64,000 nucleotides of DNA. Origin: Antedon mediterranea. Lineage: Eukaryota > Echinodermata > Crinoidea > Comatulida > Antedonidae. The DNA lies in the NCBI RefSeq assembly GCF_964355755.1, contig NC_092677.1:15718101-15782100 (forward strand). Reading direction: 5' to 3'. The translations under genes were made by a program, and so were the position numbers. The notes under the pieces are model-generated. The model saw only the letters and a list, made by a program, of their open reading frames with translations, was not told the origin of the DNA and ran no database searches. Below, piece after piece: positions 7,946-63,983 of the stretch (position 1 is its first letter; the number at the start of each line of letters is the position of its first letter).

Positions 7946-8486
7946 ACCACCAAAACGCTGGAAACAGAATGAGCTGGTGGGTTCGAGATTGCTGACTTAT
8001 ATGCACAGGTACACTCATCGTGAATCTAATTCCAGTTTGTTTCTTTAAAAAAGCAATTTAGACAACATGTAATTTGAACCAACAACAGCTTCTTAAATAA
8101 CAATCAATACTCCTATATATATTTATTTTTGTTGTAAAAATACATTATCAAATTCTTTTGAAGTTAATTGCAAGCGAACAAAACAATAATCAACTGTAGA
8201 AACGAAAAGCGATCGAAACTCTTTATTAATTAACATTCAATTATAAAGTTTTTCTTTGTAGAAATTTGATATCGGATCACACACAAAAATAAAATATATA
8301 TTTTTCTGAAAAACACATGTAATTTAAAGCAAAATTAAATTGGGTGCTAGCCAATGGGTTTTTAATTCAATCGTTTCTTTTGTCTTTTTGTAAGTTAAAT
8401 TAGTTTTGGTTTTTTTAATGGAAGTGATTACATTTATTAAAAATTAAAAAATGGCCTATTCAAATTATGATGTTATTAATCTTCAT

Positions 8487-19791: not shown

Positions 19792-19873
<82 letters not shown>

Positions 19874-34315: not shown

Positions 34316-36180
34316 ATGGATTTCACACAGGTAAGACGTATTTTAGGGTTAGGGTGCTCTCTAATTGAATACCACTCAATAAACTTAATATTTCGATAGT
34401 TTTAATTTCAAATTATATTGTCTCACAAAATTAATTTCTACATTTTAGATCTTAATTAGACAACACTAAATATATAATGCAAGATTTTATAGGAACAACC
34501 TCGAATGTTTCATTAATGTAAGCGTATTGAAGTATCAAACTGATTCGTTTATTTCATCGGTGTTTATTTAGTTTTTAAGGAAAAGGCGTAAATCTAATTT
34601 CTATAGTAACGAAACTGGTAAAGTATAAATAAACCATATTAACGTGCTTACATTATTAACAGAATACCACTATAACTTGGAATGTTTCTTATCAATATCT
34701 CTTCAAGCATACTAGCATGACGTAGTTTGGTCATTGGTCGCAAATAGAAATCCCCCTAATAACAACGGTTGTAATTATCTTTTTTGTTTTTTAAGTCTAT
34801 ATACTAGGAATATACATACGAAAGAAAATACATGCTTATCCTCTAAACAAATGTAAATACCTGTTTCGAATTAACGTATATTTTTTGGTAATTACACTAA
34901 ATCGATGAGAAAAAAGTACTTACAACAATCTAGCAAAATAACGGACATGATGTAAATGCAGGCACTAAAACATGGTTTCTACATAAGTTATTTGATCAAT
35001 CAAAACCAATGGTTTTATTCGAACTTTCGCGTGTCAAAACACACCTGCGTTGCGCTTCTACGTATTTACACTGCGTTACTAGTAGGAACTACGCTTAATA
35101 TTTCGCCATTGCAATTGCGGTAACTCCACAACAAGCGCAAACAGAATACAAGCAATGTGTTTCTGATTTTTTTCAGGTGTTGATTGCTGTACTACTTTTG
35201 AACAGTATTGGTAAGATCCTTTATATTGCCCTTTTATATGAAATGTGAACATTCCTACAAAATATGGATTCCTAAAGCAAGAACTTAAGCCTAGCGTTTG
35301 GATCACATCAATTCCCACCATGATACGTCGATTAAAAACAGATGAATTTTGATTGATAAACTTGCTTGCATTGCGGTTTAGTTCCAGTCGGAACCAAGCT
35401 TAATGGGAACGAATCTTTAGAAATAAGTCAGAGTACAACATGACAACACAACCATATTGGGGGGGGGGGGGCACTTTTCCTACCTAATGTTGCGTGCGTT
35501 GCAGCATATTGTTTTCTGAAGCTTGGTTCGCACTACAGGATACAACGCAAGTACATAAGCGCAACGTAAAGTCACAATCAATGGATTATTCGAACCTCGT
35601 GTTTTAATAAATCGCTTTCGTTTCGGCTTACGTCCTTGCGTTGCGTCCTAGTGAGAACCAAGCTTTGAAACTCTGTAATTATTTCGTAAGAGCCGCATAA
35701 TTGCATCAACCATACGCTTCATCGTCGTTAGACATAGCGCGTTCTACTATTTTGTGTCATTTATTTCTGTCGTAGGCCGGATGTGTCTCAAGTTTTTCAG
35801 ATTTACTATATTCTATAAATGTCTTTATTTCTTTATTTGTAGTCAATGCCTTTTTATATTTATTTTTATTATTACTATTATTATTCTTTCATTCATTCAT
35901 ATATTTTTAATATCTTTTTAAATTCTTAATCTGTTATTGCTAATTACATTAACAGTAATTTTTTCTTTTTTTAAATACAAAATTCAACGTAAACAGAGCT
36001 GTATAAATGTGTTACAAAACATTTTTGTTATCAACAATTAACATGCCTCCGGAGTAAATTTTTATTTTATACAGTATGCATTTTTTCTAAGATTAACAAG
36101 ACATTTTCTCCAATAATTTGTTTATACAACTTTACTGTTGTTTTTTTGTTGTAAAGGTACATCTGTTACCCAAACTGTTG
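34316..36180 (+). CDS. Gene B leader exons: signal peptide and an 8-residue micro-exon
   Basis: Exon 1 (34316-34330) encodes MDFTQ, exon 2 (35177-35210) VLIAVLLLNSI, and exon 3 (36157-36180) is a 24-nt micro-exon encoding GTSVTQTV. Together they form a signal peptide and its cleavage region. Exon 3 is matched in size, phase and splice sites by 51174-51197 in gene C (GISAYQAI), which supports it despite its size. It is absent from gene A. Intron 2 contains a GGTTCCCACTAG-family MITE at 35521-35666. Confidence 0.75.
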
Positions 36181-37280
36181 GTAAGTACACGTCAGTTACT
36201 AATGCTATTTTGCTAAAACCTTGTTCGCACTGGACTTGAAAAAATGGTAAATTTAACCACAGTAGCTTTAGCCAATGTCATCGGAATATTTGACCATCGT
36301 TCGCACTATTTCACGAAGTTAAATTTACAAAATTTAACCGCGATGTTAAAAACAACGATTGACTCACATGTTTTAAACATGAGTCGGACGTTCGGATTCG
36401 ACTTTCTAGCCGCGTGGTTTGTTTTATCGAAAATATGGTAAGTTTTACTGGACTATCAACTAAAAATTAGCACTCTGTGAATTATGCCTACTTCTGAAAG
36501 AGAAACCAAATTTTTGATTTGATTCTCATTTAAACAAACCCAATTTGTGTTTTGTATGTACATGGGATGGGTACAAAATAAAATATATTCTTTATCCACT
36601 CAGTAACGAAATATTGTTTCATGTTTTTATATGCCTATAAATAATATACCACTAAATACAGTAAAACATTTGATATTTAATACTGTGTTAAAATTGTCCC
36701 TTAATCGATTGAAATAGTAAAGTACATGTAACGATACACCACTACGACGTTTATATTTTTTATAATTATTAATACACAAACGTTGAGAAGCAACTATCAG
36801 TAATACATTTTATTTGTATTTATATATCTAACAGCAGAGCCTACCCACAGTCACAGTATTAAATGTTATTTGTATATGTGTTTATATATCTAAAAGTACA
36901 CTTACAGAAAGAAATTTTCCTTTTAAATGGCGACCAAAATGGTTAATACGTATTTACAGTATTGTCAAAGTATTGCAATACTTAAGGTTTTAAGTTTATT
37001 CTCCTTAAGGGCTCATAAATGTACCTACTTGTGTTTAATAAAGAGCTAACAAATCTACCTACTTGTGCTAAACCAAACTGGGAGACTGAGAGATTGGAAT
37101 GTTCCATTTATCCATTTGTATAAACGTATATTAAATCTATCAAAATGATATTTTTAAAGAAAATATGTTTAAATTTAACACATATGATTCTGTACTCGAG
37201 TAGCTCATAAATTAACCTACTTGTGTTAAACCAAACTGGGAGACTGCGAGATTGGAATGTTCCATTTATCCATTTGTATA

Positions 37281-37318
<38 letters not shown>

Positions 37319-40300
37319 GTGGTGTTATTATTATTATTATTATTCAGTTTCTCTTTGCCGAGTAATCTTCTGATTTCTCCGCCTGGGCTGCCTTGCTTAC
37401 TCTTTGTATCAGGTTTCTCCATTCCTTTCGTTTATTGGCCAACTTTCTAAAATATTAAACATCTTTCATTGTCTCCAGCATCATCATGCCAGGGGAGTTC
37501 ACCTTTTTTATGTCATTGTTTAAAGTAACTGGAAGTGTGCATTTAGGCCTACCTAAATGTATAAACGTATATTAAATGTATAAACGTATATTAAATCTAT
37601 CAAAATAGTATTTTTAAAAAAAATCTTTTTAAATTCAACATATATATGATTCTGTACTCAAGTTGTTTAAACGGTTTTCAGCTATTAAAAACAAATATCG
37701 TAGGAGGCGATAAATAAAGGTGAATCATCCTCATAGTGTGCGGGTATTTTTCAAGATGGACATTCATTAGACAGTGTATACCACGATCGAAACAAACCCC
37801 TGAACCTAAATTCGTTTTAATCGTCAATAACTAATTATCTAACTAAATTTTATTAGTGAACAGGGTTACATTAGGTGGGTAAAATCAGTACCGAAAGTAC
37901 GAACCAACTTTATATACCATCGATTAAACATTCTAGAAATAACGCGCGATTTACCGAATGTTGCCCTTACGTAAATGTATATAGATTGTAGCCAGTGTTC
38001 GAATTGAACCTTTCTTGGTCAATTTAGTCGGCGACTCGGTTAATTTGACCAGATGAAATCCAGTGCGACCGAGGTATAAGACAGTATTGTTAACCTTGGA
38101 TTAACAATCCACTGATGCCTACAGTATAAAACAGTAATACTGAAGTAAAATGATGGCAAAGGGCTAATTGCGGGGAAAAAAATGTTTATGTAACCCATTT
38201 TATTAAAAAAAAATCGGTTTCTTACCAGGGAGGAAGAGTTTAAGGTATCCAGTAAAATTCTTATGTTTTGGTAAACAAAATGTTATAAAAGAGAGGCATT
38301 AAACAATGTATTACTGAATTTTACCGGTTTTTGTGTTTTTATTCAACTTTAACTCCCACTAACAATTTTGTTATGCATTTTTTTTTATTTTCTTGGGAGT
38401 TATCGCCAGATATGGTAACATTAGGATTGAAGTAATTACTAGATTTTTACTATACTAAATTAAAAAAAGACTTTTTTTCCCCCGTGATTGATTGGTGTAC
38501 ATTTAACTATTAAAACTTCTTTACAATACACCCAGTCTGGTATTACCAATACCGTATAATATTAAAACGTGTTTATAAATTTCAACAGGACCATCGTACT
38601 CGTATAATAATCCATGCAACTACACTCGTCATTCAAATTGGTATGTAAACCTAACTTGTGACACTTGGAATGGCGAAGGACACGGTGATGACGTTGTTAT
38701 AAAAGGTTACACAATTCAGTATTGGCTCACCAAGTTCCCGAGTCGCGTTTACAACATCACTGTCAACAAACCTATGTCGTTGCAATATACGGTCTTACTT
38801 CATGTTAGCTATTCCTACTCACATCAGGTCACAGTGTTGGTGAACTATGAATCTAACGGAACTGATGTGGTCGGATCAAGGAGCCCTCTACTGAATATAT
38901 CGAAAGGTTTTCTGTATATTTATTGCTATATTCATGCTTTCCTTTAACATGTACGTTGTTTATTAAAACATTGTTTACTTTAAAATGTGTACATGTGCAC
39001 ACACTTTATATTTGATTGATTGATTTGACGTAACATGGATTTTAAAAATAACATATATATTTAAAATATGTCCAATTTTGTTATTAGTATGTGTTATTAG
39101 TTTTATTATTTCTATTATACCTTTTCCCCAAGCTGTTCGTCTAAACAAATAAACATTTTCTATTATAGCACCTATTATTTTTCATCTACTTTAACAATGC
39201 ATAGGGCTCTCAATTTGACGTATTTTTCCATGATGCTCACCACCAACCCAAATGGTTAATTAACTAGCAGTAACCCGGGCTCCGCACAGTCTTGTTCTGC
39301 CTTGATGTGGTCATATACTAATTTGCATGGGATGAGTATAAGTATATTAAAAGCGCAGTATTCCCTGATAAAAGTACTCTGAAAAATTAATTTAAAAAAA
39401 ACAAAATGTCAAGAATACAATTGTGTACTATTTACGGCCATTGATTTTGTTATACACGAAGTATTTCTTCACTTTGAAATATCTGTAAGCTAAAAAATGA
39501 AAGCAATATTGTATGAGATTTTAAGAAAATAAAAGAAGCTAAAGAGAAATTGTGGTTTCTTTCCTAGATGGTACGCTCGCTTCGCTCGCGTACCATCTAG
39601 GTCGTGCCCACAGATGGTTCTCGAATACATAGTAATTTCAGCGTTAACAAACTGGCGACTTCAAATGTACATGCAGGACAATAATACATGTCGTTTACAG
39701 GAACAAATAAATAAACACGGTGATTTATGTACTCAACTAAAATTAGCACCCCAGGAATTACTTCCGAAAAAGAAACTTGTCACAAAATAAGAAACAAACT
39801 GAATTTGTGTTTTGTATGTAACATTAGGGTTGAGGGATGGGGAAGAGGATGTGTGCAAAGACGAACAATTTTAAAATATATTCTTTATCGATTTAGTAAC
39901 GAAATATGAACTGTTTTAATGTTTTACAAATAATATACCACTAAACACAGTAAAACATTGCGATTTAATACTTTGTTGAAACTGTCACCGTCATAGTCGA
40001 TTGAAATAGTACAGTACATGTAACGATACATCACTAATACGACGTTTGTATTTGTTTGTAGTTACATTATTAATTAATACAAACGTTCAGAAGGAACTGT
40101 CGGTAATAAAGTAAACAAATCTATTCGGAATTCGTAAATTCACTTTAATCGTCAATAAATAATTATCTAACTCAACTTAATTAGTAGGCCTAATGGTCAA
40201 TTGTTTCTTAGAGCCAATTCATACTTAAGTTGTTTCCTAACCACCAAAGTTGTTCTGCGTTTAGGGCATGTGATCCTTCGTACTGTAGGCCTGTCCTCTA

Positions 40301-42459
40301 CTGGCTTTACAACGCTACTCATGCCAGTGAGGGGGAGGGTGGTGGTATTGGTGGTGGTTTAACTGCAATAATAAAGTTGATTGTACATAATAGACGGCGA
40401 CTGGAAAGGCTAGCTCATTATGCGCAAAAAAAAAAGATTCCACAGTTTGAAAAAAAATGGATCGAATTTCTGTTATGACTGTACTTGTCTTTACGTCGCC
40501 TGAGGGAATAGACACTTGTGGAACAGAGATTGGAATGTTCCATTTATCGCAGATCAAAACATTTGTATAAACGTAGGCCTATATTAAATCTATCAAAATA
40601 GTATTTTTTAAAGAAAATCGGCCTGTCTTCAACATTATGATGCTGTACTCGAGCTGTTCAACCGGTTTTCAGCTATTAAAAACAATTATCGTAGGAGGAG
40701 ATAGGAAAGTGCGAAGCATCCTCGCATTATTGTCTGCGGGTATTTTTCAAGTTGGACATCCATTGGACAGTGTATACCACGACCACAAAACACCCCTATT
40801 TGGGGCAAATCGTTGAACCTAAATTCGTTTTAAATGTCAATAACTAATTATCTAACTCAATTTAATTAGTAAAGATGGTTAAAATCAGCATCGAAAGTAC
40901 GAACCAACTTTATATACCATCGAGTAAAAATTCTAGAAATAAACCGCGATTTATCGAATTTTGCCCTTACGTAAATGTATATATAGATTAATCTAGGGTG
41001 CGCGTCAGAAAGTGACAACGTGCATGATGGTCTGTCAATCAGTCGGCATTTTAAAACATTTCAATAACATATGAATTGGTAATTTATAGAATTGAGATGT
41101 GAAGTATTGAAATACTAAAACTGCAGCTGCTTACGGACCTTAAATCAACACAAAAGTGCACATGGTGGTGGTAGTCGAAATTAGATGATGGACACTAACT
41201 ATATTGTTAAACATGAAAACGATTTTTTTATTTTATCTATAGGTATCAAAATAATACACAACGAAAAACATCCATATAGAAATAGAATTGTTAGTTTTTG
41301 AACTGACCTTATTGGAGACGAAATTTGTGGAAATGATTGCATATCAATATTTAATTTATGTTCTCTTATAATGTATATATTCTTCCATAGAAAATACACC
41401 AGACATTACTGGGTTCAGTGCGTCTGGTTTCTACATGATGAAGGAAGTCAACACTTTGCATATGCGTTCTTATACAAAGCAGCTTACGAAATATATTGTC
41501 AATTATGGAGTCGGCTTATGGGTAAATGATAACAGAACACATTTTGGGGAGAAAGAATTAAGTAGTAAAAATATGATAGAAATAATAAGAGAAAATCTAC
41601 TTGATTCAATTTTTACTCAAACTACAAGCTTCAACTCCCGCTCAGGTGTAGCATACGAGTTGTCGTTCCCCGGCAGTGTCGGTGTTCGAAGAGTCGGAGT
41701 AAAATACATGAGGACAGAATTTAATGGAATTGTTGCGTCGATACCAATGGTATTTTTAGCACAATATGGTACGTGTGAATAAAATGTGGATAAATGTTTC
41801 TATATTAACAAAACAACTGTAAGCCTATAGTACATTTTAAAAGCGGTGAGATGATTTACGTAAGTTCATTTTTAATTTATAGCTGAGATTGTAGCACAGA
41901 ACCGGACTATATCTACCAGTATTGGTGAATCTATTGAATTAGTGGTAACAACCAATAATACAGTTAACACTAATAATTTAAGATGGAAAAAAGACGGTAT
42001 TATTGATATTTTTGAATGGGATGGACTGAGTAACGTGACTATTGAGAATGTTCGGAGGAAGGATGATGGTATTTACGAATGCTACCAAGAGGGTCATCGG
42101 GACGAAGGACAGCATGCAATAGTACGAGTGATTGTAAGAGGTAAGATATTTTCAGCACGAATACCTTTTATTTTTCCATAATTTAATATTATATTACGTA
42201 ATAAACTTAATAACCACTCATAACAACAAAATATGACTTCTTTTGGCCTCATGTGCCTGAGCTATTTTTAAAGGAAATTTAATCATTCCATCTGTTAATT
42301 GTCATCTCCATTTCTTTAATTGTACTTGTTGCTTGTCTTGAGGTTTGATCTCTAAATCACGTTATAGTTTTGATACTTTGATAACTTTATTTCGTCCACA
42401 TAGGAAAATATTTTGAGTGCTTTTCACAAAATTGTACAAAAATATATAAAAACGTTTCA

Positions 42460-42499
<40 letters not shown>

Positions 42500-45400
42500 T
42501 ACAATATTTAAAAACACTATATATAGATTATTATTTTCCTGTCCAATGTTATTGTTCTTATCATTCTTTCCTTATATTTTCTTTGTGTTTATTTGAATTT
42601 GTGTTCCATTTTTGCCATTGCGTCTCTGCTTCGTAGGTGATACACTGGTTAAAAACTGTACGTGTCAGGCATAGCGGAATGTTACTCTTTTAAGTGTTTT
42701 TATTATATTTTCCAAAAGCATTCGAGTCAGTCTGTATTCTTTTTCCCGGTTCTTTTTATTGCTGTAATCCATTTTCATTATTTATCTCCAAACCTTGATG
42801 ATTTCGTTATTAAACCTTGATTTATTTTATCGTTTTTATAGGTGTCAAGTATTAATTATTCCGATGTTGTTACTTTCTTCGTTTAGTTCATTAAACAGTT
42901 TTTATACTGCGTTTGTGTTATATAATCTGCAAAGAGGATTGAGGAAGTTTATGGCAATTTTTTTCTATACATTTAGTTCCTTTGTCTAGAAAACTAAGAT
43001 CTAGAAAACTAAGACCTAAAATATCTTAGTTTTCTAGATCTTAGACACCCCTTTTTTAGTCTATAGGGACTAGTTTATTATAAACAACTTATTTTTAAAT
43101 CTTATGTCATAATAATTTTAAACTGAATAAAAAGCACAACACTTGCACTACAATTATTCCAATTATAATTCCTATGCAAATGCAAGTGAAGGCATTATTA
43201 TGAAGACGGGTCTTGCAAACAAAATTCTTCGGTTTTAATCTTAAAAAGTAGGCCTAATTGAAATAATTGTTACCAAGTAAAATTCAAAGAGTTTGTTTGA
43301 CACATCCCCATTAAATTTTCTGACCAATAAACCACAAAAGAATCACACATTGATTTAAATGAGCAATAATAAACAACCTATATTTCAGAGTGTCCCCGTG
43401 GGAAGTGGTTCCCTCCGGACTGTGAATTAGACTGCCCTGTATGTCACAATGGTGGTGTGTGTTCTGAATTTGGATCATGCGTCTGTCCTCCAGGCTTTAA
43501 AGGCGATAACTGTGAAGAAGGTAAATATTTTAAATTAACCGATTCAGTGCTTTCCGTTAACTCATTGTAGGTCTAGTCTTTACGCCGCTGTTTGACAAAC
43601 GAAAAAAAAACTTCCATTTCTGTTATAGGTAAATCTACTTATGTAATAATATATTTTATTATGTTTTCATTAAAATTACATAGCATGTGGAGATAACTCA
43701 TGGGGACGGGATTGTACAGTTGTTTGTAAATCTGGTTATAAATGCGAACCAGGGAATTTACACTGTTTACCTGATCCATATGGCTGCTCATGCTTTACAG
43801 GATATGAGGGATTGGAGTGTGATCACGGTAATGTAACCATTTTATAATAACACATAACTAAATGTTAAAGGTAGATTAAGATAGGTTGTCTAGTTTATTA
43901 GTTAGTTAAGAATTGGTTAAGGTAGGTCATAAAAAGCATTAGAATTATACATAAGCAGATGTATGATAATGGTATCATAAACATTTTTTTTAAATAAACA
44001 CCAACCAATAAAATGATCGATAATCAATAACCCGAGATTGAGAAGAAGATACTGTGCATGTTCAAGATAGCTGTTGATGACTAAAACACTCCAAATTTAT
44101 TTTAAAATATATAAAGCGCATCATTAGATATTTAATTCTTTTCAGAATGTGATACACAAACAACTGGCAGGTACGGAGCAAACTGCATGATGGAATGTCA
44201 CTGTGACACAAGTGAATGTTTCAAAACAGAGGGTTGTGTTGAGGGTGCCGTGTGCAACAGCAATTACACTGGGAAAACGTGCTTAGGTAATTGATACACC
44301 TAATACATGTAATCGTCACTAGACAATGCTAGCATGATACACATAACAACAATTACATTTTTTCGAGAAGTTATTTCAACGTAATAACATGGTTACTAGT
44401 TTAAGTTCAGTAAGCTATTGTATATTGTACAAGTTCAAAGTTTATTAATTGACAGCCGGAGTATAATTATTAAACTAATAATAATGTAAATATTTTTAAA
44501 TTTGAAAATGTGTTATTTCATTAGAAAGGAAGCCGGATGTTGTTTGCCCAGAGGGGTTCTATGACACAGAAAGAGAATGCACCAAAAGGTGTCATTGTAA
44601 ACATTCGTCAACTTGTAATCGTACCAGTGGACGTTGCCCAGACGGTGATCATTGCGCAGAAAGTTGGGCTGGCTTAGGCTGTCAACAAGGTAGGAATTTT
44701 AAAACAAAAAAAAAATTGTTTAGAAAGTCTTTCAACATTTACCACCCCGCCTAAAATTAAAGACTTTTGGTCGATACGTTATATTAACAGTCTATCCGCT
44801 ATACTGTAGATATCTTGACTTTCATGGCGTATCTATACATTTGGAAATGGAAAGGTTTATAATTTAAAGTACGGCCTCAAATATAAAATATAATAGCATG
44901 ATGTGAATGATATTACTTATATTATAACACTTCCGCATTAAAGTAAAGTAGTATTTCTCTTTTCCCTCGCACGGTGTGTCTCATCGGGGATGCTGATTGG
45001 TTATGGAATTTATTATTAATAAAATTTGTCCATGTATTTGTTTTCTGGTTTGTTGTAATTGATCCAAGCTGAAAAGCACCCGTGTCTATTGTACATTTGT
45101 GTCAATAATGGAAGTGTAATTTTTAAAAAGGGTTTTATATTAGTAAAGTTTGGCTTGCGGTTAACAAGTGTTTCGAAAAGCAAAGTAAGGTTGAGGCGTT
45201 CCGGTTGTTATTCTGCAATCAAAGCAACATGACGTTGAGCGCGGAAATCAAATGACACGACCTTAGTTCCACGCCCCTCACCAGACACCGCTAGTACTTG
45301 TCGCAGCCAGACATAAGTTCAAAGGCCTGTTATAACTTCCTATATTGTCAAGGCGAGCTCGGTGGATTGTTGTTAGATTGCTTTGCCACAACTGTTATAG

Positions 45401-48479: not shown

Positions 48480-48661
48480 ATTTTTTCTATCAAATGGGTA
48501 AACAATAGCCAACCTTGTTTAGATATAAAATGTACGTGTATTTTTTTTTCTTTCCACAGTTTAACTACTTATTTTTTTTCAGCATTAACCATTTACTTCC
48601 ACAGCAATTACCAAAAACAATGTCTCCCCCACAGAATATCAACTTGTTACTATTTTAATTT

Positions 48662-48667
48662 AATAAA
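48662..48667 (+). terminator. Polyadenylation signal AATAAA, gene B
   Basis: About 183 nt after the stop; same relative position as in gene A. Only about 1.1 kb separates it from the gene C start. Confidence 0.55.
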
Positions 48668-49239
48668 GTAAGTATAAGTGTACAGAATATAGGCTAAACA
48701 AGAATACACACAATTGAGGAACCGCATGGAAATATTAATAAGATGATATTGGAAGTTACACAAGAATGCAATACCAGTTACAACATCGTGAAAAGCATTA
48801 ACTGTGTTCGGTGGTATGCAGACCACATCTACTGATCTAATTTAATAATTGACACTGCCGATATAAAAGGTATTATTATCATTATTATCCAAAAATCCCC
48901 TACTGTATAAAAGAAAATGATAAAATATTACAATGTATCCGTAATTTACGGTACGTGCAAACAAGTTGAACAATGGATGGATTAAAAATAATAAATGGAT
49001 GCTGTGATAAAACCGAATGTACATAACATCGAAATGTAAAGAACAATATTGATATGTTTTGCTAGTTATCGTCCTAGTTACTTCTCTTTTGTAATAAAAT
49101 TAATTTTGTTAGTTTCATAATTTATTATTTATGAGTAGGCCTATACGAATACCAAATATAATGGCATCCTGCCAAGAACTGTCGAGATGTCATTGCATGT
49201 TTACACAGTTCCAATTATTTTTGTTGCAAATAATATTAT

Positions 49240-49725
49240 TAAGTTCATGGCAACAGCACGTGTTTATTAATATGGTGGTGTTACAAAAATTATATCTTAC
49301 GGCAAAACCTAAAGATTAATTTTGACATTGTGACCCACCTTACAAAATGATGTTGAAACAAAACATATTAAAATTGAACAATAATCTCCAGATGTTGCTA
49401 TTCACAAGGAATTATGTTCGTGTACATTGTCTTATGTTTAGTTCATATTAATTTAATAATAATGATTATTGATTAAATTGGCCCTATTTTGGGTCACATG
49501 ATTCTACATTATTCTTTTCCAAACAAAATCCATGGCAACAGCGTGTGTTTATTAATATGGTGATGTTACAAAATGTATATCTTACGGCAAAACCTAAACA
49601 TTAGTTTTGACATTGTGACCCGCCTTAACAAAATGATGTTGAAACAAAACATTATTAAAGTTGAACAATAGTTTCCAGATGTTACGATTCACAATAAATG
49701 TTCGTATATAAAAGAATATTATTTC
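49240..49725. repeat. Tandem duplication of the gene C promoter region
   Basis: About 285 bp are present twice. CATGGCAACAGC, TGTTTATTAATATGGTG, ATCTTACGGCAAAACCTAAA, CATTGTGACCC and the CCAGATGTT block occur at 49247-49440 and again at 49533-49725. Only the second copy is next to the first coding exon. The upstream one may be a spare promoter. Confidence 0.75.
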
Positions 49726-49797
49726 CAACATATTATCAGATATTTTCTTGTTGGCAACAGATGAAGATTCCAGACTATTTCAATGCTGTGTTTTAAT

Positions 49798-52700: not shown

Positions 52701-55700
52701 AGAGTAGACTTAGCCCTACTAGGCTAGAGGGATGCTTGGTCAACTTGTACCCAAACTAACTGGTACCCAAGCCAACTCGTACCCAACTTAAATATTAATT
52801 AGTAAGAAAACGTATAATCAATATTAATAGAATAATAGTGTAGTATTTCCAAATAACCTACCCTCTAATTAATATTTAGGAAAACATTACACGATGTTGT
52901 TAAACTTGTTGATCTTAAAGATAATAGGCTTGTCGCTATTGAGGTTGGCAAGGGTAGGTATAAAACCTTATTTGTTAACCTGTACTTACCCTATGAATGC
53001 GACGACAACTTTGGTGAATATTTACAATATTTAGGTAAAATCAAAAGTATTGTTGAAGAGTTTGACAATGACAAAGTAGTCCTTGTTGGTGATTTTAATT
53101 CTGATCCTAAGAAAAAATTCGGTAACGAATTGATTGATTTTTGCACTGAGTATAACTTGGTTATATCTGATTTGGAATACTTTGGTCATTACTCAGGTAC
53201 GTTTACTTATTTTAGTGATGCTCACAGTACCACAAGTTGGTTAGACCATGTTGTGAGCACTCATAGTTCCCATTCTCTGCTGTGTAATTTTATAGTTAAT
53301 TATGATTTTATGTATTCTGATCACTTTCCTATTTCGTTTGACTATTTAGGCATTGATATTTGTGATGATTGTAATGACAAGGGTGAAAATATGCATGAAT
53401 CCTCAAAAACTATCAGAGTTAACTGGAATAATGTTAAGAGGGAGGATATAAACAATTTTAATGAGATAACTGAATCCTTACTTAGTAACCTTTATTTTAT
53501 TTATTTTCTTTATTTATATTTTTTTCTTCTCTTAATTTAAATATTTTGTAAAGGCAATCCCGTCACAAGATTGTAATCTTTTTGGGATTTGCCTTCGTCC
53601 ATTTTCTTGTTTTATCACTTGCCATTTTGTTTTTGTCACTTTTGTCTTTTAGACGTGAATAGATGTTCCTTGAATTGAACCTTACTCTCAATTGCGATGG
53701 TATACTTTGTAATGATTCCTCAAGTAAAGATGAATGCCATTGCAATGATATTAGTGATTTATATGACAATGTTATTGAGTGTCTGAGAGTCAGTTCTGAG
53801 GGGTGTTTTAAGTCGACTAAAAATCAAAAAGTCAATGTTGTCCCTGGGTGGAATAACTGAGTAGCTGGATTTCATAAACATGCCCGGGAAGCATTTTTGA
53901 AGTGGCGTGGGTTGGGTAAACCCAGATATGGCCACATCTATTAACACATGAAAATCACTAGATCTAATTTCAAAAATGCCCTCAGAAAGTGTAAATCCAA
54001 CGAAGAAATGCTAAGGGCGGACTCGATGGCCAAGTCTTTTGACGATAAGGACTATAATAGTTTCTGGGGTAAGGTTAAGAAATCCAGCTACGCCAATTCC
54101 CAGTCTAACATTATTGGTAGTGCTAAGGGCGAAAATGACATTTGTGACCTATGGCGTCAACATTTCTCCGATTTATTTAATAGTATTGACTCATCTGAGC
54201 ATAAGACTGTTGTTAATGAAACTCTTGAAAACTGTACAGACGGTGAAATTGATGTTTCACCCCATAATATTAAGCTATTAATTGACAAATTGCCCAATGC
54301 TAAAGCAGCGGGATATGATGGTCTATGCAATGAGCATTTCAAATTCGCTTCTGAGCGACTTAGTATTATTTTAAGTGTATGTTTTAAGGCTATGTTTGTT
54401 CACGGGTTTGTTCCAAGTAATCTCACAAAAGTCACGCTTGTGCCGGTAATTAAATCTAAATTAGGGAATATCACTGATAAAGGGAATTATCGGCCAGCTT
54501 CTAAACTTCTAGAGTCTGTAATGATACAACATTGTGGTAATTCACTGGACTCCCATGACAACCAGTTTGCCCTCAAATCTGGTCACTCAACCGAATTGTG
54601 TATATTTGCTCTTAAACAGATTATCGAGCATTACAACAATCATGGTAGCCCAGTTTATTGCTGTTTCTTGGACGCTAGCAAAGCCTTTGATAAAGTGAGC
54701 CACTGGACACTTTTCACGACCATATTTGACAGGGGTACCCCTTCACCTGTAGTTAAGATACTGAGGTCATGGTATAGGAATCAGGAATTTGTTGTCAGGT
54801 GGGGAAGTTCCGTTTCCGATTCTTTCACTGTTCGTAATGGGGTTCGCCAGGGAGGCGTTATGTCCCCTCTACTTTACAATGTGTACACTGATCCGTTAAC
54901 TGGTGAACTGACTAAGTCAAAAGAAGGTTGTGAAATTAACAGTCTTAAACTGAATTGCCTAAGCTTTGCCGATGACTTGGTCCTTTTGGCTCCGTCAGTG
55001 ACTCGCTTACAAAGCATAATTGGACTCTGTGAAGGTTTTGCTAGTGACCATGATATTACTTTTAATGAAACCAAATCCAAATGCTTGCTATTTTTCCCGA
55101 AAGTCCGCAACCTCAAAGGTGTTCCACATATTACCTTAAATGGGGCACCTCTAATCGTTGATAATTCAATAACCTATCTTGGTCATGTGATTAGTAATAA
55201 CCTGAGTGATGAAAGTGACACCAAACGTCAATATCGATCTATTTGCATTAGGGCCAACTCTCTAAATAGAAAGTTTGGAAAATGTTCTACTAAGACTAAA
55301 CGTTATCTATTTAAGAGTTACTGTGTCAGCATGTACTGTTCAACCTTATGGTGTAGATATAATAAGAGCACTCTGAGATCACTGAAAGTATGTTATAATA
55401 ATGCCTTACGTTTGCTGCTGAAGCAGCCTAGACATTGTAGTGCAAGCATGATGTTTGTCTTAAATGACGTCCCATCCTTTGATGAGTTCATTAGAAAATC
55501 TGTTTTTAGTTTTAAAAATCGTGTGAACACAAGTAGTAATTCCTTGATCATGGCCATTAATCGCCACGTTCTTAATGTGTCAAGAATGCACATACAATGG
55601 AATGCTTTGTTGCATTGACTTTATATATTTACATATCTTTGTTTTTGTTCTATGAGCTGTTAGATTAAGATTGTTTTTCTCTCTTTTGCTATGGATATAA

Positions 55701-58700
55701 TATTATGTCACCATGATATTCCGAAATAAAAAGATAAATGAATGAATGAATGAATAATGGAACGATCCAAATATCCAAGACTCAGATCTTGATATCCGAG
55801 TTTTCTATAGATCTAGAAAATTGAGATATATCTGATATCGGAGTTTTCTAGACACAAGTGAATATAAAATGTTAATTGTTTGGGTTACCCTGGGTAAAGA
55901 AATATTATTATAGGCCTACATAATGAATGATAAAAATAAATGATATTAGTAATAATAGTAGTACGGATAATAGTAGTAATAATAGTAGTAGGCCTAATAG
56001 TAGTATAGTATTATTAATAACTAGTAGTACAACATCAACAAGAGCATATTGTATATGGTTATGATTTGATCAAAGACGTAGAAGAATCGCATTGTCGCGA
56101 TAGAATTTCTTAAATATTATGTATTTCTTTATTTATTGATTTCATTTCATCAAACAGAACCATCGTACTCGTATAATAATCCATGCAACTACACTCGTCA
56201 TTCAAATTGGTATGTAAACCTAACGTGTGACACTTGGAATGGCGAACGACAAGATGATGACGTTGTTATAAAAGGTTACACAATTGAGTATTGGCTCACC
56301 AAGTTACCGAATCGAGTTTACAACATCACTGTTAACAAACCTATCTCGTCGCAATATACGGTCTTATTGCATAGTAGCTATTACTACTCACATCAGGTCA
56401 CAGTTTTGGTGAACTATGAATCTAACGGAACTGATGTGGTTGGATCAAGGAGCCCTCTACTGAATATATCGAAAGGTTTTCTGTTTATTTATTGCTATAT
56501 TTCTGCTTTTCTCACTGTTATGTACGTTCAACATTTTGTTAAAATTGTTTACTTTATACATTTAATTTGGTGATTTTATGTAACCTGGATTTTTTTTAAT
56601 AACATGTATATTAAAAAAATGTCCAATTTTGTTATTAGTATTTGATATTATGTCGTAAGTTTTATTATTTATATTTTCCCAAAGCTTTTCGTCTAAACAA
56701 ATAGTTTTGTTATGCTTTAATTATCACCTATTATTTGTCACCTATTTTAATAAAGCATAGCACCACCAATTTGACGTATTTTGCCCAATTTTTTTCCGTA
56801 TTATTATTATTGTATGTTATTCAATGTTGTATTGTTAACTGGCTTACATTTTCTTTAGAAAAAACACCAGATATCACTGCGTTTAGCAATAAGGCCTACA
56901 TGGTAACACAGACAAACACAATTAAGGTGCGTTCGTATACACCCAAAAATGACAAATTAAACGTCTCCTATGGAGTAGGATTATGGGTAGATGACAACGG
57001 AACACATTTTAGGGAAAGAGAACTTAACAACAGATATGTGGACGTGGACGTGGACGACGACAACCTTAATAGTGATAGAACTGTTGATGTTCCAGTAAAC
57101 TCTATTTTCACCGAAGGTACAACACTTTCGAAATACGAACACAACAATGCCGATGCATACGGTTTACAATTTCCCCATAGCGTTGGTGTTCGCAGAGTCG
57201 GAGTAAAATACATGTGGACAGAATTTAATGGAATTGTTGCGTCGACATCAATGGTATTTATAGAACAGAATTGTAAGTGTACTTTATTCAATGTGTCTAT
57301 TCAATTACTGTAGTACTAAACTTAACGGGTGGAAATTAGATATTAACTTAACATTTAACATATAATGCGATGTGTGAAATGTGATTTGAGGTAGTAACAG
57401 ATATCGCCAAAACTATCAACTCGCCACGTCTGTTTATTATTCAACTTTGTATCATGAATTTTCTAGCAGGAAAATATTTAATTACCCTAAATTATTTAAA
57501 TAAAACTATCTAGTACGTTCATATAAGTAGGCCTGTGTTTAAGATAAGACATTTTTGATCGTTATTTTCTAATTCGTAGCTCCGATCGTACAAGAGCACC
57601 GAACTATATCGACCAGTATTGGTGAATCTATTCAATTGGCTGTAGCACTTGTTAGCATTGACAATACTATGCTGCGATGGAAAAAAGATGGCAGTATTGA
57701 TATATCAGAATGGAACGGTATGAGTAACGTGACTATTGAGAATGTTCGAAGGAAGGATGACGGTATTTACGAATGCTACCAGGAGGGTCATCGGAACGAA
57801 GGAAAACACGCAATAGTTCGAGTGATCGTTCGAGGTAAGTCTTTTTTATAGAATGCTCTATGGGAACTTAATTTACCACGTGCATCATAAAATCATTACA
57901 AGGTTTCTCGCAAGCAATTTAGAAAACAGGGGTATATTCTTGAACAGGAAAGTGGAATTCTACAACAGTAATTGTTTGTAATTATTGTTATTGTAGGCCT
58001 AATTGTTTTTGATCAAATTATTGAATGAATTGAATTTGTAAAAGCAATCAGTATTGGTAATATAAAGTGCTCAGAAAGAAATAAACATTTGCATAACATA
58101 TTTCAGAGTGTCCACGGGGAAAGTGGTTCCCTCCAGACTGCGCGTTAGACTGCCCTGTATGTTACAATGGCGGTGTTTGTTCTGAATTTGGATCATGCGT
58201 CTGTCCTCCAGGATTTAAAGGCGATAACTGTGAACAAGGTAATGAACTTCTATCAAATTTACTTTGAACCAAAATACTATTATTTCTAAAAGCAATTTGC
58301 GTCGATACGTTGTATCTGCGTTCTTGCGTTGCGTCCTTAGCGGGGGAAGCAAGCTTAATTGGCTACACAATTAAGAACTGCAACCTGTTCGGTAAGCTAT
58401 GTTTCATGTAGATCTTAATTGCTCACTCAGTAGATGTATAACTGCATGTTTTGTTTTATGAAGCATGTGGATATAATAATTGGGGACGAGACTGTACAAT
58501 TGTTTGTAGCTCTACTTAGCCAAGAATTTTAATAAGGAACAGGTAAACATTACATTGTATTGTTCAGAATGTAATACATTTCATACTATATGTATAGCAT
58601 GTGGAATCAATAATTGGGGACGAGATTGTACAATTCTTTGTAGCTCTGGCACCCCTGGATGCCCAGGTATATTATACGGCCTGCCTGATCCATATGGATG

Positions 58701-61700
58701 CTCATGCTTCACGGGATATGAAGGGATAGAATGCAATAATGGTAATGTTACACTTCTTATAATTATATACTTTTTCAGATATGCCTACTAAAATATTTTA
58801 CCCAAACGAGGCTCGACATTTTTATTTTAATTCAAACATTATGTAAGAACAATAAAAAAAGGATAATTATAAATACATGTTTTATTTCCTAACAAACAAT
58901 TAATATTCGTCACTGTGGTAGCTTAACATATTATTAAACAAAACGTATTGTGTTGTTCAGAAGCATCTAAGAGAAGGCACGAAACTACAATAAAACTGGT
59001 TGTATTATTCCATTGTGACTTTTGTTCAACTTTAGAATGCGACGCTGGTATGTATGGACCAAACTGCTTGCTTGAATGTCACTGTGACGAAAATAGCTGT
59101 GACAGGACAAGTGGTTGTACTATAACTGCAACATGCCACAGTGGATACACTGGAGAAAGGTGTTTATGTAAGTCATTTTACTAACTGTAGAAAGACACTA
59201 ATTGATGAATCCTTGGCCTTCCATAGAATTATAACGTTTTAGATCTTCGGAGGGCTAGCCACATGATGCCATTTTAACCAGTAACGTTCTTGTATTTGCA
59301 TAGGCTATGTAATAATATATACTATACTAAAATATGTTTGTAGGTCTGAATACTGTATTATAAACAACAAGGGCATATACAAGGCTGCAGTCGCGTGCTC
59401 AAGTTAGTGTTTACCGACCAACCGACCGAGATAGTGAGCTGTATAGAGTCGCGAATAAATAATAAAAATTTAATAGAAAAAACTCATTTAGTGCTGGGTT
59501 TGTTGTGCTAAAATAGTATAATTCATAAATACACACATGTATGTTTTATAATGTTTTTTTGTGTGTTCTCAGATAGAAGTGAGGATGTTGATTGCCCTGA
59601 TGGGTTCTATGGGCCAGAATGCACCAAAGTATGTCATTGTAAACATTCATCAACTTGTAATCGTACCAGTGGAAGTTGCCCAGACGGTGATCATTGCGCC
59701 GAAGGTTGGGCTGGCTTAGGTTGTCAACAGGGTAGGATATTAAATCATATTCCTTTAAAATAAACATTGTTTTCTTTATCATTATATGGCATGCCGATAC
59801 AACATAATGTTTTAAAGAATATAAGCTTCTCTGTCCCACAATTTAAACTTTTGTCTTTAAACTATAAAACAATCTACGAGTACCTTAACATATTAATCAA
59901 AATGTATGAAGATATTGAGACGGTTCAAATATAAAGGCGGGAAACGTTAACACTTAATACATATGGTAGATACCTCAAACCTAAAAAATACCATACAAAT
60001 ACTTAATGTTTATAGGAGTGCGATGGTACACATAATGCATGAGGCAAAAGATGAGGCGAAGCCGAGTTAAAATGTAATTTAATATTTCACCGAATGAAAT
60101 TATTTGTACCGTTGCACGATTATAAAACATTCATACCTCTGTTATTTATGTGTCAATAACCGAAACACAATCCTAGGCCTGGGCTGGGCCTTGTGTAGGA
60201 AGATTAGCAATATTTAAAAATCTCCAGACAACTGAAACTGATCTAGACTAATTCTGATTTTTCCCAACAATTCCACGTCTTATAGAATTATCAAAATCAT
60301 ACAAACGATCTAAAGCTAATTTAAGTGCTGTTTTTGGTTTAAAATAACATATATCGCTTTCCAAAAATGTTAGTTTCGATAGAGTGAACCGTTATTTTTT
60401 TCGTACAAACAAAACTAAACTTTACACACGATCTTCAAATAATGACAAATATATTTAGGTGTGTTATAATAACAGTTTATTGGGAAAAACTATGTTAGGT
60501 ACGGTACCGTAATTATCATGAATGAATTAAACGTTCATTTATTAAGATGCAAACTGTGTTCTTATATCTGTTGTATTTTATAAAGCTGGTCAGCCTAGGC
60601 CTAAAAATAATTTATTTCCAAACCCATCACATGGCTTTATCTATTTCAGCCCTTCCAGCTCTAAGTGATGCTCCATTTATTGAAACGTCTGGTAATAACA
60701 TAAAAGCTTATTGGTCAAACTGGACACTAAATAATGATTATGGCCGAGGAATCGTTAAAAGTTATCAATTACTGTTTTGGTCAGATACCAATACCAGTGA
60801 TTTAAGTACGTTAAACATTACAAACGGTGTTGAAGCAATCGTATCTTGGACTCAAGTGGACTACTACACGGAATATTGCTTTGCGGTTAAAGTATTTACA
60901 GAAATAGGACAGCAATTATTCCTAGGAGAGGCAAGTCCTATGAAAGATCACAAAATATGTAAGTAATCTAACAATAATGACATCGTCTATTAAAAATCTG
61001 AAAAGATTTTTCAAAATACGTTTAGTGGAGTTTAAGCATATAACTTATAACTGTGAATCCAATTTTGGTTGTATCCTACAAAAGAACCATTTTCGACAGT
61101 GCTGACAGTGTGCTATGAATACGGTACCTCGCTGTTTAAAGTGACATTATATCGTCACTGATGGGGTGAGTATAGAGTCTTTCCATTCTCGACATGTCAT
61201 CTAAATTGTTTTGAAACTTGCATACATTTTACAATTAGTTAATTATTCATATCTAGATCCGCCGTCTTTACTCCGTCCGCCATCGTTACTGTCACGTAAC
61301 TCCCTGGGCGTCAACATTACTTGGAATGAATGGACGTACGCCTTTGACAAGGGCATTGGCAATGTAACAGCCTACATCGTTGAATGGTGGTATGCAGTGT
61401 CTGCAGCTGACGTCGGTGAAATCAGGTGTACCGGAGATACATCAGAAGGAATACTTATTCCAAATATAACGTATGATTCTATCTTGGTTGTCACCATCAG
61501 GACAATGTACGTAGATGGCAGTGGTGAGCAAAAAGGAGAACCCAGTCCAGTTCTGGTCATTTTAAAAGGTTGGTCTAATTATTTGACTGGGTTATGTTTT
61601 AGATATTCTAACTGTTGTGGGTTTACTCATCAGCCGAAAGTTATAAATTACAAAGATTACTTTAAATAATCCAATAATTAATATAAAATACTGTTGTACG

Positions 61701-63983
61701 TACGTAACTACATTACATTTAACACAATATTTAAAGAATGCAATACGATCAATTTAAAACTAGGCCTACATTTAATTTCTTTTCAGATAACTGCCCCTAC
61801 GATTGGAAACTATTAGAAGATACTTGTTATTTTTTAGATGGCAGTTTACTTAACTGGAATGACTCTAACGCATTCTGTCAAAAACAAAATGCATCTTTGG
61901 TGTCTATAACAACACAAATCGAAAATGAATACATTAAACAGTTGGCACAGGACAAATTATATGATTATATTTGGATTGGATTGAGTTTCCAGAGCTTTTC
62001 TAGGAACTGGTATTGGATTACGGAAGAGATACTTTTGTATAAAAGTATGTACAGTAGATGATATCATTTACATAGCTCGATGGACATGAGCTTTATACTT
62101 TAGATCACCTACTAAGGGGACACTTTGAATTCTGTTCCGGTTAGTTATAAAATGGGAGCTTTAAAGTGCTGGAGAACGAAGCGATGTATTATTAGTATTA
62201 TGTTTCGTTAAAAAAACAAGCGCCGATGTTTAATCTCTATCTAGGTCACTTTTGTAGGCCCCGAGGATGTCCTCTTAATCTAATAAAGGTCTATATATAA
62301 ATATTTATATTTGTATTAAGTAATCAAAATAGTTGTAATTATTTTTTTTTGGAGAAATTTCGGTCGAAATACAATTACGGTACAGTATTACGTAATGTTC
62401 ACGAGAATGTAATTTATTTTTCTACCAAGATTGGCAAGGAACACCAGACAACGCAATGGGAGAGTGTGCATATTTTTACACATCGAATGGTTTTTGGTCA
62501 AATAGGCCTTGTCAATCAATTAACAGAGTAATGTGCGAGAAAGGTAAATGTTTAGTTACTGCCCTTACTTACTACTGCCCTAAGCGAACACTTTCTGTAA
62601 GGTCTAGTTCCTACTTAGGACGCAAAAAAGCAACACAAGTAAAATTGGTCAGCTCGCTTAAAGCTTGGTTCCCACTAGAACGTAACGCAAGGACGTAAAC
62701 GCAATCATTGGTCAATTCACTTGCGTTGTGTTACGTCCTTGCGTTGCGTCGCTAGTGGGAACCACGCTTTAGGTGTGCTTACGTCCTTGCGTTGGGAACC
62801 AAGCTGTAGGCAAACACATGCATTTTATAGTAATCCCTTCTTTTATTTTACTTTACGTCACCTGAACGATTTTTTTGGACAAGAAATAACGTTTCTATTT
62901 ACCGAACTTTACAATGTTGTACTTTTCTTCCAAATCAGTCTTAATAGTTATAATAGTACTTAGTTCTATTTCTGAATAGGTGTTCAAAAATTTGGTTGTC
63001 TTGACGAAAGTTGGAATGGTTATAAAGACGAATGTTACAAATACTTCAACAATCGTACAACACACGATGAAGCCGCACAAAGCTGTCGACATTTCCGAAA
63101 TGCTGACCTAGCTAGTATTCATTCTTTAGATGAAGATGAGTTTGTTGAAAGCATCATTCGAAACTTCAACAAGGACACATGGCTTGGCCTGAACTACTCA
63201 AAAGAATCTGGTAAAACTGTGTATTGATCAAATTGTAATCGAATGTATGTTTTACTTACTATGTCCAGAACTGTACGTTTACTCAACTGGATACTTTCCG
63301 TTGGGTAGGGCTAAAAATGTGCATAATATTATTCAAAAAGTTTTGTAAGAGTGTAAACTATGTGATACCACCCGATTATCAGTACTGTATCTCCACATAT
63401 GACAATATTGTCTATTATAGACGAAATCTACAATACAGATGTTCCACAAACATACCTGTATCATTTGAGGTTAGGTTATGGTTCAATGATTTAGGTTGTA
63501 TGTGCTGATGTTGATGCTTTATCACTGGGCAAATTAAGATACACTACTGAGAATTAGAGTGCACAGTAATTATATATTGATTAACAAAAGGTGGAGTGAC
63601 CTACACATCATTACGGTAGAAATATTCTATAATTTTTTTTGGAAAAAAAAAAGTTCACTCACATGCGTGCGTAAAAGTTTATTTTCTGCGTACCAGACTA
63701 ATGGGCCCATATATCACCATGAATAATGGTATATTAATAGACGTTATCAATAATGATATTCACATTATTTTATGTATATTTGTTTACAGATCTTCAATGG
63801 ACTGATGGCACCGTTGTTGAGTATGTGATTAACGGACTTAATCAAACTTATATAGATGGCAAATGTGCAGCATACAGTCAGGATAACATTTTCTTCTGGA
63901 AATTCATGGATTGTTCAACAGAAAATGCATATGTGTGTAAGGATATAAGAGGTAACAAACACATAACAAATCTCGCGTTCTGA
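49798..63983 (+). CDS. Gene C: secreted Tie-ectodomain-like protein with two C-type lectin domains
   Basis: Sixteen coding exons: 49798-49812, 50509-50542, 51174-51197, 56158-56475, 56859-57272, 57580-57834, 58107-58238, 58598-58741, 59036-59167, 59573-59731, 60650-60958, 61239-61568, 61787-62044, 62430-62543, 62980-63210, 63790-63983; 3,063 nt, 1,020 aa. Signal peptide MDLAQVLILILIWKSIG, then FN3-like, beta, Ig, four EGF modules, two FN3 domains and two CTLDs as in gene B. Differences: the beta domain is 12 codons longer with an acidic run (VDVDVDDD); EGF2 has lost one cysteine (ILYGLPDPYGC against LHCLPDPYGC in B); intron 3 is enlarged by a LINE. The stop lies 17 bases before the window edge, so the polyadenylation signal is outside. 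Predicted soluble; ligand unknown. Confidence 0.82.
49876..50155. repeat. Tandem duplication in gene C intron 1
   Basis: Two copies of about 145 bp, with AATTAAATACCACTTATGGG, TTTTATAGTACTTAGTAATTG and TAGTAGGCCTTACTTTTT-like landmarks. Noncoding. Confidence 0.75.
50985..51013 (+). pseudogene. tRNA 3'-half remnant
   Basis: CCGAGTTCGAATCTCGGTTAGGCGGC contains a 5-bp T stem with a perfect TTCGAAT loop, followed by what could be an acceptor half. No 5' half is present; it is a tRNA-derived fragment or SINE end. Confidence 0.45.
51405..52165. repeat. Paired dispersed repeat with ACAG/GACC microsatellites
   Basis: GCATAGTGATACCGGACCGACAGAC and a run of ACAGACAG/GACCGACC, then CATAGTGAACTATA, occurs at 51405-51490 and again at 52062-52165 (the latter followed by GAGTCGC..CACGCGACTAA). 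Shorter relatives at 33785 and 59410. Between them is a GCGCAC/GCGTACG-rich stretch. In intron 3 of gene C. Noncoding. Confidence 0.7.
52388..55855. mobile_element. Foldback-like element split by a LINE
   Basis: The left arm (about 52400-52545) and right arm (about 55752-55855) are inverted relative to each other. Right-arm landmarks AATAATGGAACGA, CTCAGATCTTGATA and GGAGTTTTCTAGA correspond to left-arm TCGTTCCATTATT, TATCAAGATCTGA and GAAAACTCAGAT. The LINE occupies the space between. The best explanation is insertion into the loop of a palindromic element. Confidence 0.55.
52880..55750 (+). pseudogene. LINE (CR1/L2/Jockey-like non-LTR retrotransposon), inactive
   Basis: 5'-truncated endonuclease region (about 52880-53490): TLFVNLYLPY, VVLVGDFNSDP, SWLDHVVST, SDHFPISFDYLG, the C-terminal motifs of an APE-type endonuclease. 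The frame is then interrupted by an AT-rich insert of about 165 bp (53490-53660) and by stops at about 53858 and 53941. The reverse transcriptase (53948-55618) is open for 556 aa: AAGYDGLCNEHF, GNYRPAS, CFLDASKAFDKVSH, VRNGVRQGGVMSPLLYNVY, LSFADDLVLLAPS (FADD catalytic pair), NSITYLGHVI. The 3' end carries a GAATGAATGAATGAAT tail as in L2-like LINEs. It sits sense-strand in intron 3 of gene C. Confidence 0.85.
58317..58362. mobile_element. MITE end fragment, GGTTCCCACTAG family
   Basis: TTCTTGCGTTGCGTCCTTAGCGGGGGAAGCAAGCTTAA is one diverged end of the family. In intron 7 of gene C. The other end is not present. Confidence 0.55.
58463..58520 (+). pseudogene. Decayed duplicate of the EGF2 exon, gene C
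   Basis: CATGTGGATATAATAATTGG, then GGACGAGACTGTACAATT, GTTTGTAGCTCTACT repeats the start of the real EGF2 exon at 58598, with its own AG acceptor, but reads into TAG after 18 codons. The second half is missing. A tandem partial duplication left this pseudoexon about 135 bp upstream of the intact one. Confidence 0.8.
59732..60649. other. Gene C intron 10, no feature seen
   Basis: AT-rich intron between EGF4 and the first FN3 exon. A minus-strand frame overlapping 59.55-59.84 kb is the shadow of the EGF4 exon. Confidence 0.5.
62590..62812. mobile_element. MITE inside MITE, gene C intron 14
   Basis: An old copy of the GGTTCCCACTAG family, orthologous to those in genes A and B, is split by a younger compact copy at 62661-62772. 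The younger copy has crisp ends (AAAGCTTGGTTCCCACTAG, CTAGTGGGAACCACGCTTTA) around GCAAGGACGTAAACGCAA and its complement. Flanking old pieces: CTACTTAGGACGCAAAAAAG and GTCCTTGCGTTGGGAACCAAGC. Confidence 0.75.

Follow-up and report, generated by a model that had tools for sequence, protein, structure and literature searches.

Four neighbouring genes of Antedon mediterranea, A to D, form a tandem array that appears to encode secreted proteins combining Tie-type modules with C-type lectin-like domains (CTLDs). Judging from the sequence, we consider it reasonably probable that these four proteins have a D-like origin and a role in fluid-borne recognition. Coordinates of A, B and C, which are all on the forward strand, are positions within the window, the whole 64,000-nt stretch of DNA that was analysed; gene D is located outside it, just past its end. 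On chromosome 8, the array occupies C8:15.735-15.801 Mb. All four genes have open, phase-consistent exon models.

Organization of the tandem array

Genes B (34316-48479) and C (49798-63983) each consist of 15 exons with AG/GT borders, and their open frames encode 1,005 and 1,006 aa, respectively. The original prediction of two intact genes is retained, but its count of 16 exons and about 1,020 aa is not. The first exon ends in phase 0 and all later junctions are in phase 1. The domain order agrees with that described previously and is seen in both the assembled frames and Pfam: signal peptide, FN3, an unassigned domain, Ig, four EGFs, two FN3s and two CTLDs.

In gene B, the shared ATG exon (exon 1, MDFTQ, 34316-34330) is followed by an exon common to all copies, which contains the signal-peptide core VLIAVLLLNSI (exon 2, 35177-35210). 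Exon 3 (38589-38906) encodes an FN3 with 57% identity to the terminal FN3 of module 1 in gene D. The unassigned domain (exon 4, 41391-41768) occupies the position of Tie Ig1, and the Ig domain (exon 5, 41883-42140) is collinear with Tie2 Ig2. Four EGFs (exons 6-9; 43389-43520, 43684-43827, 44146-44286 and 44525-44689), with the sequence LPDPYGCSC in EGF2, precede FN3a and FN3b (exons 10-11; 45470-45787 and 46016-46327), which are detected by Pfam within an open frame. CTLD1 (exons 12-13; 46540-46797 and 47071-47187) matches Pfam Lectin_C, and CTLD2 (exons 14-15; 47533-47763 and 48283-48479, including the stop) is likewise identified by Pfam and an open frame.

Gene C also begins with the shared ATG exon (exon 1, MDLAQ, 49798-49812) and the common signal-peptide exon (exon 2, VLILILIWKSI, 50509-50542). 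The remaining exons are open and in phase 1, encoding the N-terminal FN3 (exon 3, 56158-56475), the unassigned domain (exon 4, 56859-57272), Ig (exon 5, 57580-57834), EGF1 and EGF2 (exons 6-7; 58107-58238 and 58598-58741), EGF3 and EGF4 (exons 8-9; 59036-59167 and 59573-59731), FN3a and FN3b (exons 10-11; 60650-60958 and 61257-61568), CTLD1 (exons 12-13; 61787-62044 and 62430-62543) and CTLD2 (exons 14-15; 62980-63210 and 63790-63983). Compared exon by exon, B and C are 50-90% identical with an overall dN/dS of 0.33, which excludes chance as the source of the two models. A single giant transcript spanning B, C and D is ruled out, since every copy has its own signal-peptide exons.

The proposed tandem duplication is confirmed and extends to A and D, two array members that had been overlooked. 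Gene A (17405-22156) encodes 292 aa, comprising a signal peptide and two CTLDs. Its ATG exon (exon 1, MDFIQ, 17405-17419) and GTAAGA donor are common to B, C and D. In exon 2 (18734-18797), an internal deletion has brought the signal-peptide core and the 3' end of the exon for FN3a together in one frame. The exons of CTLD1 (exons 3-4; 19146-19403 and 20729-20842) and CTLD2 (exons 5-6; 21150-21380 and 21960-22156, including the stop) are 80-94% identical to those of B. The in-frame deletion and the open 292-aa frame do not support A as a plain pseudogene, though dN/dS between A and B is 0.66. Pairwise values among B, C and D are 0.27-0.33, indicating purifying selection on these three genes.

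Gene D encodes 1,501 aa, with two complete Tie modules ahead of the CTLDs. The N-terminal FN3 of B and C, which is 57-59% identical to its counterpart in D, had been described as FN3-like. Based on the two-module structure of D, this FN3 is not a new domain but a remnant of a deleted first module, namely the second FN3 of the lost upstream module that D has kept. The most likely ancestor of the array would be a D-like two-module gene, from which B and C may have lost all of module 1 save its last FN3, and A everything save the signal peptide and CTLDs.

Tie-type ancestry of the Ig/EGF block

Aligned as a profile, the Ig and EGF exons match Tie2 Ig2-EGF1-3 collinearly over Tie2 residues 106-318 (E 2.9e-42), far ahead of the next families, WIF1 (E 7.9e-10) and VEGFR2 (E 7.7e-9). 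This bears out the predicted Tie ancestry of the block, and Tie-type ancestry is supported at the sequence level. The order of Ig2 followed by Tie-type EGF repeats, with LPDPYGCSC in EGF2, is a Tie/TEK feature.

Major differences from Tie2/TEK, Tie1 and sea urchin SpTie1/2 can be observed. These receptors have Ig2-EGF1-EGF2-EGF3 and the LPDPYGCSC EGF2 in common with the array, followed by FN3. In the assembled frames of the array genes, Tie Ig3 is absent between the EGFs and FN3; a fourth EGF exon leads directly into FN3. The domain at the Ig1 position belongs to no Pfam family. It gives a weak match to the LAIR-1 Ig (E 0.11), and its AlphaFold2 model, built from a two-sequence input, has a pLDDT of 30. 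Where the known receptors continue into a membrane helix and kinase, the array proteins have two CTLDs instead.

Predicted secretion of the array proteins

The predicted signal peptide is encoded in A-D by the same two short exons, MDFxQ followed by 11-12 hydrophobic residues, in agreement with the earlier claim. A scan for membrane exons common to the copies found no transmembrane exon in any of A-D, while the same scan recovered a helix in locus L070 and a likely helix in locus L072, both elsewhere in the family. No kinase motif is present in the 104 kb examined around the array, and the nearest scored kinase match, among the best 133 of 774 candidates, is separated from module 1 of D by 77 kb. 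The proposed secreted ending of two CTLDs and a stop is thus supported, and we infer that the array proteins are secreted.

Ahead of the stop, the final coding exon of each copy has a fair phase-1 GT donor, AGAG|GTAACA, whose position is identical in A-D. The donor makes a longer isoform conceivable and, together with the 1-1 phase of the internal coding exons, could mean that the models are incomplete and that further exons render the proteins membrane-bound like other Tie-like genes. We regard this as very unlikely. The tail NKHITNLAF and the stop are kept in A-D, with 3/4 changes in D being synonymous, A, B and C have an AATAAA ~190 nt further on, and only 1.3 kb separate the stop of B from the ATG of C. 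Reading through the stop as an intron is judged unlikely, as the sequence downstream of A-D contains no membrane or domain exon that the copies share.

Tie receptors are a small kinase family for blood-vessel stability, and the soluble ectodomain of vertebrate Tie2 acts as a decoy. By analogy, and since they keep the Ig2 and EGF block of Tie, the array proteins might be soluble decoys for an angiopoietin-like ligand that damp a true Tie receptor tyrosine kinase. However, Ig3 is missing, the portion outside Ig2-EGF has been replaced, and no kinase-bearing Tie is found near any Tie-type locus among the best 133 of 774 candidates, making this reading highly improbable.

CTLDs of the mannose-receptor type

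Pfam detects two Lectin_C domains (E 2e-34) with the signature of the CTLD fold, including conserved Cys residues and WIGL. Among solved structures, the tandem CTLDs are closest to the mannose-receptor family (LY75/DEC-205, PLA2R, MRC1 and MRC2), with LY75/DEC-205 (E 3e-61) aligning across both domains and PLA2R at E 5e-46. Members of that family are membrane proteins with 8-10 CTLDs, CysR and FN2, whereas the array attaches two CTLDs to a Tie scaffold. The EPN/QPD motif of calcium site 2 is missing from CTLD1 and CTLD2 of A-D, and WSN or WKF stands in place of WND. The original prediction of two C-terminal CTLDs is correct, but that of a soluble lectin is doubtful, because the canonical sugar-binding motifs are missing.

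The lack of these motifs, the numerous EGF and FN3 modules and the purifying selection would also suit extracellular-matrix or developmental components with a structural function, such as lecticans or tenascins, and no part in recognition. We consider this unlikely: module-losing tandem clusters, patchy divergence between B and C exons (dS 0.06 to 1.8) and ~90 relatives that carry Tyr-motif tails are traits seen more typically in recognition families.

A genome-wide Tie-like family

The genome has 11 large contigs and a size of 354 Mb. Its Hox homeodomains are without the UbdA peptide of protostomes, as would fit a deuterostome, and a search for mitochondrial COX1 gave no hit. It contains ~89 other Tie-type Ig exons in ~20 clusters. 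No scored kinase match lies within 75 kb of any of them among the best 133 of 774 candidates; for the wider family, the absence of a kinase is based on these matches and four sampled regions. Of the sampled members, one has a membrane helix and a tyrosine-motif tail at its C-terminal end, and another has a likely helix and a similar tail. Matches to the tail occur at at least 19 loci, all inside or beside Tie-like clusters. On this evidence the array is one branch of a ~90-gene Tie-like family whose examined members carry no kinase.

A second cluster on chromosome 8 (L071, C8:12.1-12.25 Mb) also joins Tie-type Ig, EGF and FN3 to CTLDs. Its CTLDs are distantly alike to those of the array, and it additionally contains F5/8-type C (discoidin) domains.

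With so many relatives lacking a scored kinase nearby, the kinase was probably already lost in the source of the array genes. The earlier idea of a local conversion from a Tie receptor is thus upheld for Tie ancestry, but not for a local event, given the ~89 Tie-type Ig exons elsewhere with no scored kinase nearby. A literature search, with most subscription papers outside its reach, retrieved no paper that describes Tie-CTLD proteins or an expansion of Tie-like genes.

Discussion

In our preferred reading, the array proteins are built from a Tie-type module (Ig1-position domain, Ig2, four EGFs and two FN3s) joined to two mannose-receptor-type CTLDs. The array would represent a secreted branch, with the sampled relatives being kinase-less membrane receptors with short tyrosine-motif tails. 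As multidomain recognition proteins they may be carried in the coelomic or tissue fluid, where the Tie module and CTLDs would bind putative protein or glycan targets. They could be opsonins or, in relation to the membrane-bound Tie-like receptors, decoys or soluble partners; we infer such a recognition or immune role, as well as the binding partners.

Members of the Tie-like family resemble recognition proteins more than receptors for growth factors. More tentatively, the Tie ectodomain may have expanded, within one lineage, into a ~90-gene family of recognition receptors, with signalling, if any, through short tyrosine-motif tails instead of a kinase, and with two CTLD-fusion clusters on chromosome 8 whose secreted recognition proteins have diversified by module loss.

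Echinoderm immune families such as SRCR (PMC10855680) are likewise large, tandemly expanded and multidomain, with secreted and membrane forms. They are built from a different domain, and an immune role of the array is putative. Sea urchin SpTie1/2 is described as expressed in coelomocytes and the axial organ in the title of a paper cited in PMC13409769 and PMC12113024.

The four-gene array would be a clear case of diversification through module loss. If our reading is correct, an invertebrate deuterostome has drawn on the Tie ectodomain to build a large recognition repertoire, in which membrane forms without a kinase stand beside lectin-like forms that are secreted. Considering the described expression of SpTie1/2 in coelomocytes, it would then become a testable question whether the original role of the Tie ectodomain was in blood-cell or immune recognition.

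Structure of the tandem array

The window spans C8:15718101-15782100 on chromosome 8, and the analysis covered it and 40 kb downstream, 104 kb in all; positions past 64000 continue the window numbering, with 64001 corresponding to C8:15782101. Self-comparison of translated segments identified B and C as exon-by-exon duplicates and A as a third, partial copy upstream of them, and a fourth copy, D, lies downstream. In splice-site modelling, the exons of all copies are bordered by AG and GT, with exon 1 ending in phase 0 and every later junction in phase 1. The resulting genes have 6 exons and 292 aa (A), 15 exons and 1,005 aa (B), 15 exons and 1,006 aa (C) and 22 exons and 1,501 aa (D). The original prediction of multi-exon open models for B and C is retained, with sizes slightly below those proposed (16 exons, about 1,020 aa).

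Each copy begins with a 15-nt start exon (ATG GAT TTC ACA CAG, MDFTQ, in B) and a short second exon that codes for a hydrophobic stretch: VLTVVLLWNII (A), VLIAVLLLNSI (B), VLILILIWKSI (C) and ILSVILILWSIT (D). The splice sites of the pair match in all four copies, bearing out the signal peptide that had been predicted. Since each copy has its own signal-peptide exon pair, A-D are marked as four separate genes.

The locus contains several other features. An intronless sulfotransferase gene (Sulfotransfer_5, window 31581-32369) lies between A and B, and two GPCR-like single-exon reading frames, 52% identical, are located at 7079-7951 (minus strand) and 15189-16058 (plus strand). Intron 2 of C holds a LINE-type retrotransposon (52869-55615; endonuclease and reverse transcriptase by Pfam), and an intron of D a minisatellite with 77 copies of a 23-bp unit (L009 6409-8188).

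Tie-like modules

In comparisons with PDB sequences only, where PEAR1/MEGF-type proteins are under-represented, the profile of the four-EGF block ranks Tie2 first (9.7e-29, then WIF1 at 3.4e-12), and a second profile, built from Ig, EGFs and FN3a (the first FN3 exon after EGF4), is collinear with Tie2 from Ig2 through EGF3 (2.9e-42; runners-up WIF1, 7.9e-10, and VEGFR2, 7.7e-9), in agreement with the proposed Tie link. This collinearity places the Ig exon as Tie Ig2, and the unassigned domain preceding it at the Ig1 position. Unlike Tie2, the modules of B, C and D lack Ig3 and have a fourth EGF. In C, a truncated EGF2-exon copy with a stop (58457-58522) lies shortly before the intact exon.

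D consists of a signal peptide, two modules and two C-type lectin-like domains (CTLDs), each module comprising the unassigned domain, Ig, four EGFs and two FN3s. The last FN3 of its module 1 shares 57-59% identity with the FN3 at the N terminus of B and C; in the simplest reading, B and C lost module 1 except for this exon. The signal-peptide exon of A runs in frame into the final codons of FN3a (LGKASTAAI), pointing to an internal deletion that left the signal peptide plus CTLDs. The direction of change was probably loss from a D-like ancestor.

Over all exons, dN/dS is 0.33 (B/C), 0.31 (B/D) and 0.27 (C/D; Nei-Gojobori). Synonymous divergence between B and C is uneven, at 0.06-0.3 for most CTLD, FN3b (second FN3 after EGF4) and first FN3 exons, and 0.8-1.8 in the unassigned domain, Ig, EGF2 and FN3a. 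Such patchiness suggests gene conversion.

C-terminal CTLDs and gene ends

CTLD1 and CTLD2 are both clear CTLDs, and the best solved relatives of the pair are the tandem CTLDs of the mannose-receptor family. Because the EPN/QPD motif is absent from both, and the WND position is WSN in CTLD1 and WKF in CTLD2, canonical calcium-dependent sugar binding would not be expected. The intron that splits CTLD1 of A contains two tRNA-Thr(TGT) genes (19962-20035 and 20329-20402) within a stretch of recent duplication.

A fair donor, AGAG|GTAACA, precedes the stop in the last exon, and splicing onward through it would carry the genes past their predicted ends. Against such a continuation, the tail NKHITNLAF/NKHLTNLAF and its stop are common to all four copies, with three of the four changes in the D tail synonymous; AATAAA follows about 190 nt on in A, B and C, and only 1.3 kb separates the B stop from the ATG exon of C. 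Continuation is further disfavored by the lack of downstream exons common to the copies and, in a scan of A-D, of a shared membrane exon with a phase-1 acceptor. The same scan finds a helix in L070 and likely one in L072, two Tie-like regions elsewhere in the genome. No kinase motif was found in the 104 kb.

A wider Tie-like family

A search of the genome assembly (354 Mb, 18 contigs, 11 large) with the D Ig detected 89 further Tie-type Ig exons (E < 0.001), accompanied by Tie-type EGFs, in 20 places; module 1 of D accounts for one of these exons. The largest clusters contain 21 (C5:7.67-8.07 Mb) and 15 exons (C6:26.05-26.37 Mb). Among the best 133 of 774 kinase candidates, which were scored, no match lies within 75 kb of any of the 89 exons. 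About ten Hox genes on one strand form a compact cluster at C2:7.83-8.21 Mb; six Hox homeodomains are without the UbdA peptide seen in the central genes of protostomes, as fits a deuterostome, plausibly an echinoderm.

The sampled genes include a kinase-less membrane form. L070 encodes EGFs and FN3s together with a membrane helix, and its tail carries the tyrosine motifs YEDI, YANP and YDNI; this tail has 19 matches, all inside or adjoining Tie-like clusters. L072 is probably a second such gene: it has an EGF (LPDPYGCSC) and FN3 along with a likely helix, and its tail carries YELP and YVNE. L073 was sampled through its EGFs and one FN3. L071 (C8:12.108-12.255 Mb) combines Tie-type EGFs and FN3 with three CTLDs and F5/8-type C (discoidin) domains by Pfam, and high-scoring relatives of its CTLDs are confined to this cluster. 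Tie-CTLD chimaeras therefore occur in two clusters, both on chromosome 8.

Domain content and family structure suggest that the array proteins are secreted, with possible recognition and decoy roles. Reference titles in PMC13409769 and PMC12113024 describe coelomocyte and axial organ expression of the published sea urchin orthologue SpTie1/2. A Tie-2-like receptor is also named in a starfish coelomocyte proteome. On these grounds, an immune-cell link is reasonable as a hypothesis. The genome-wide set of about 89 Tie-type Ig exons is a more substantial finding than the window on its own.
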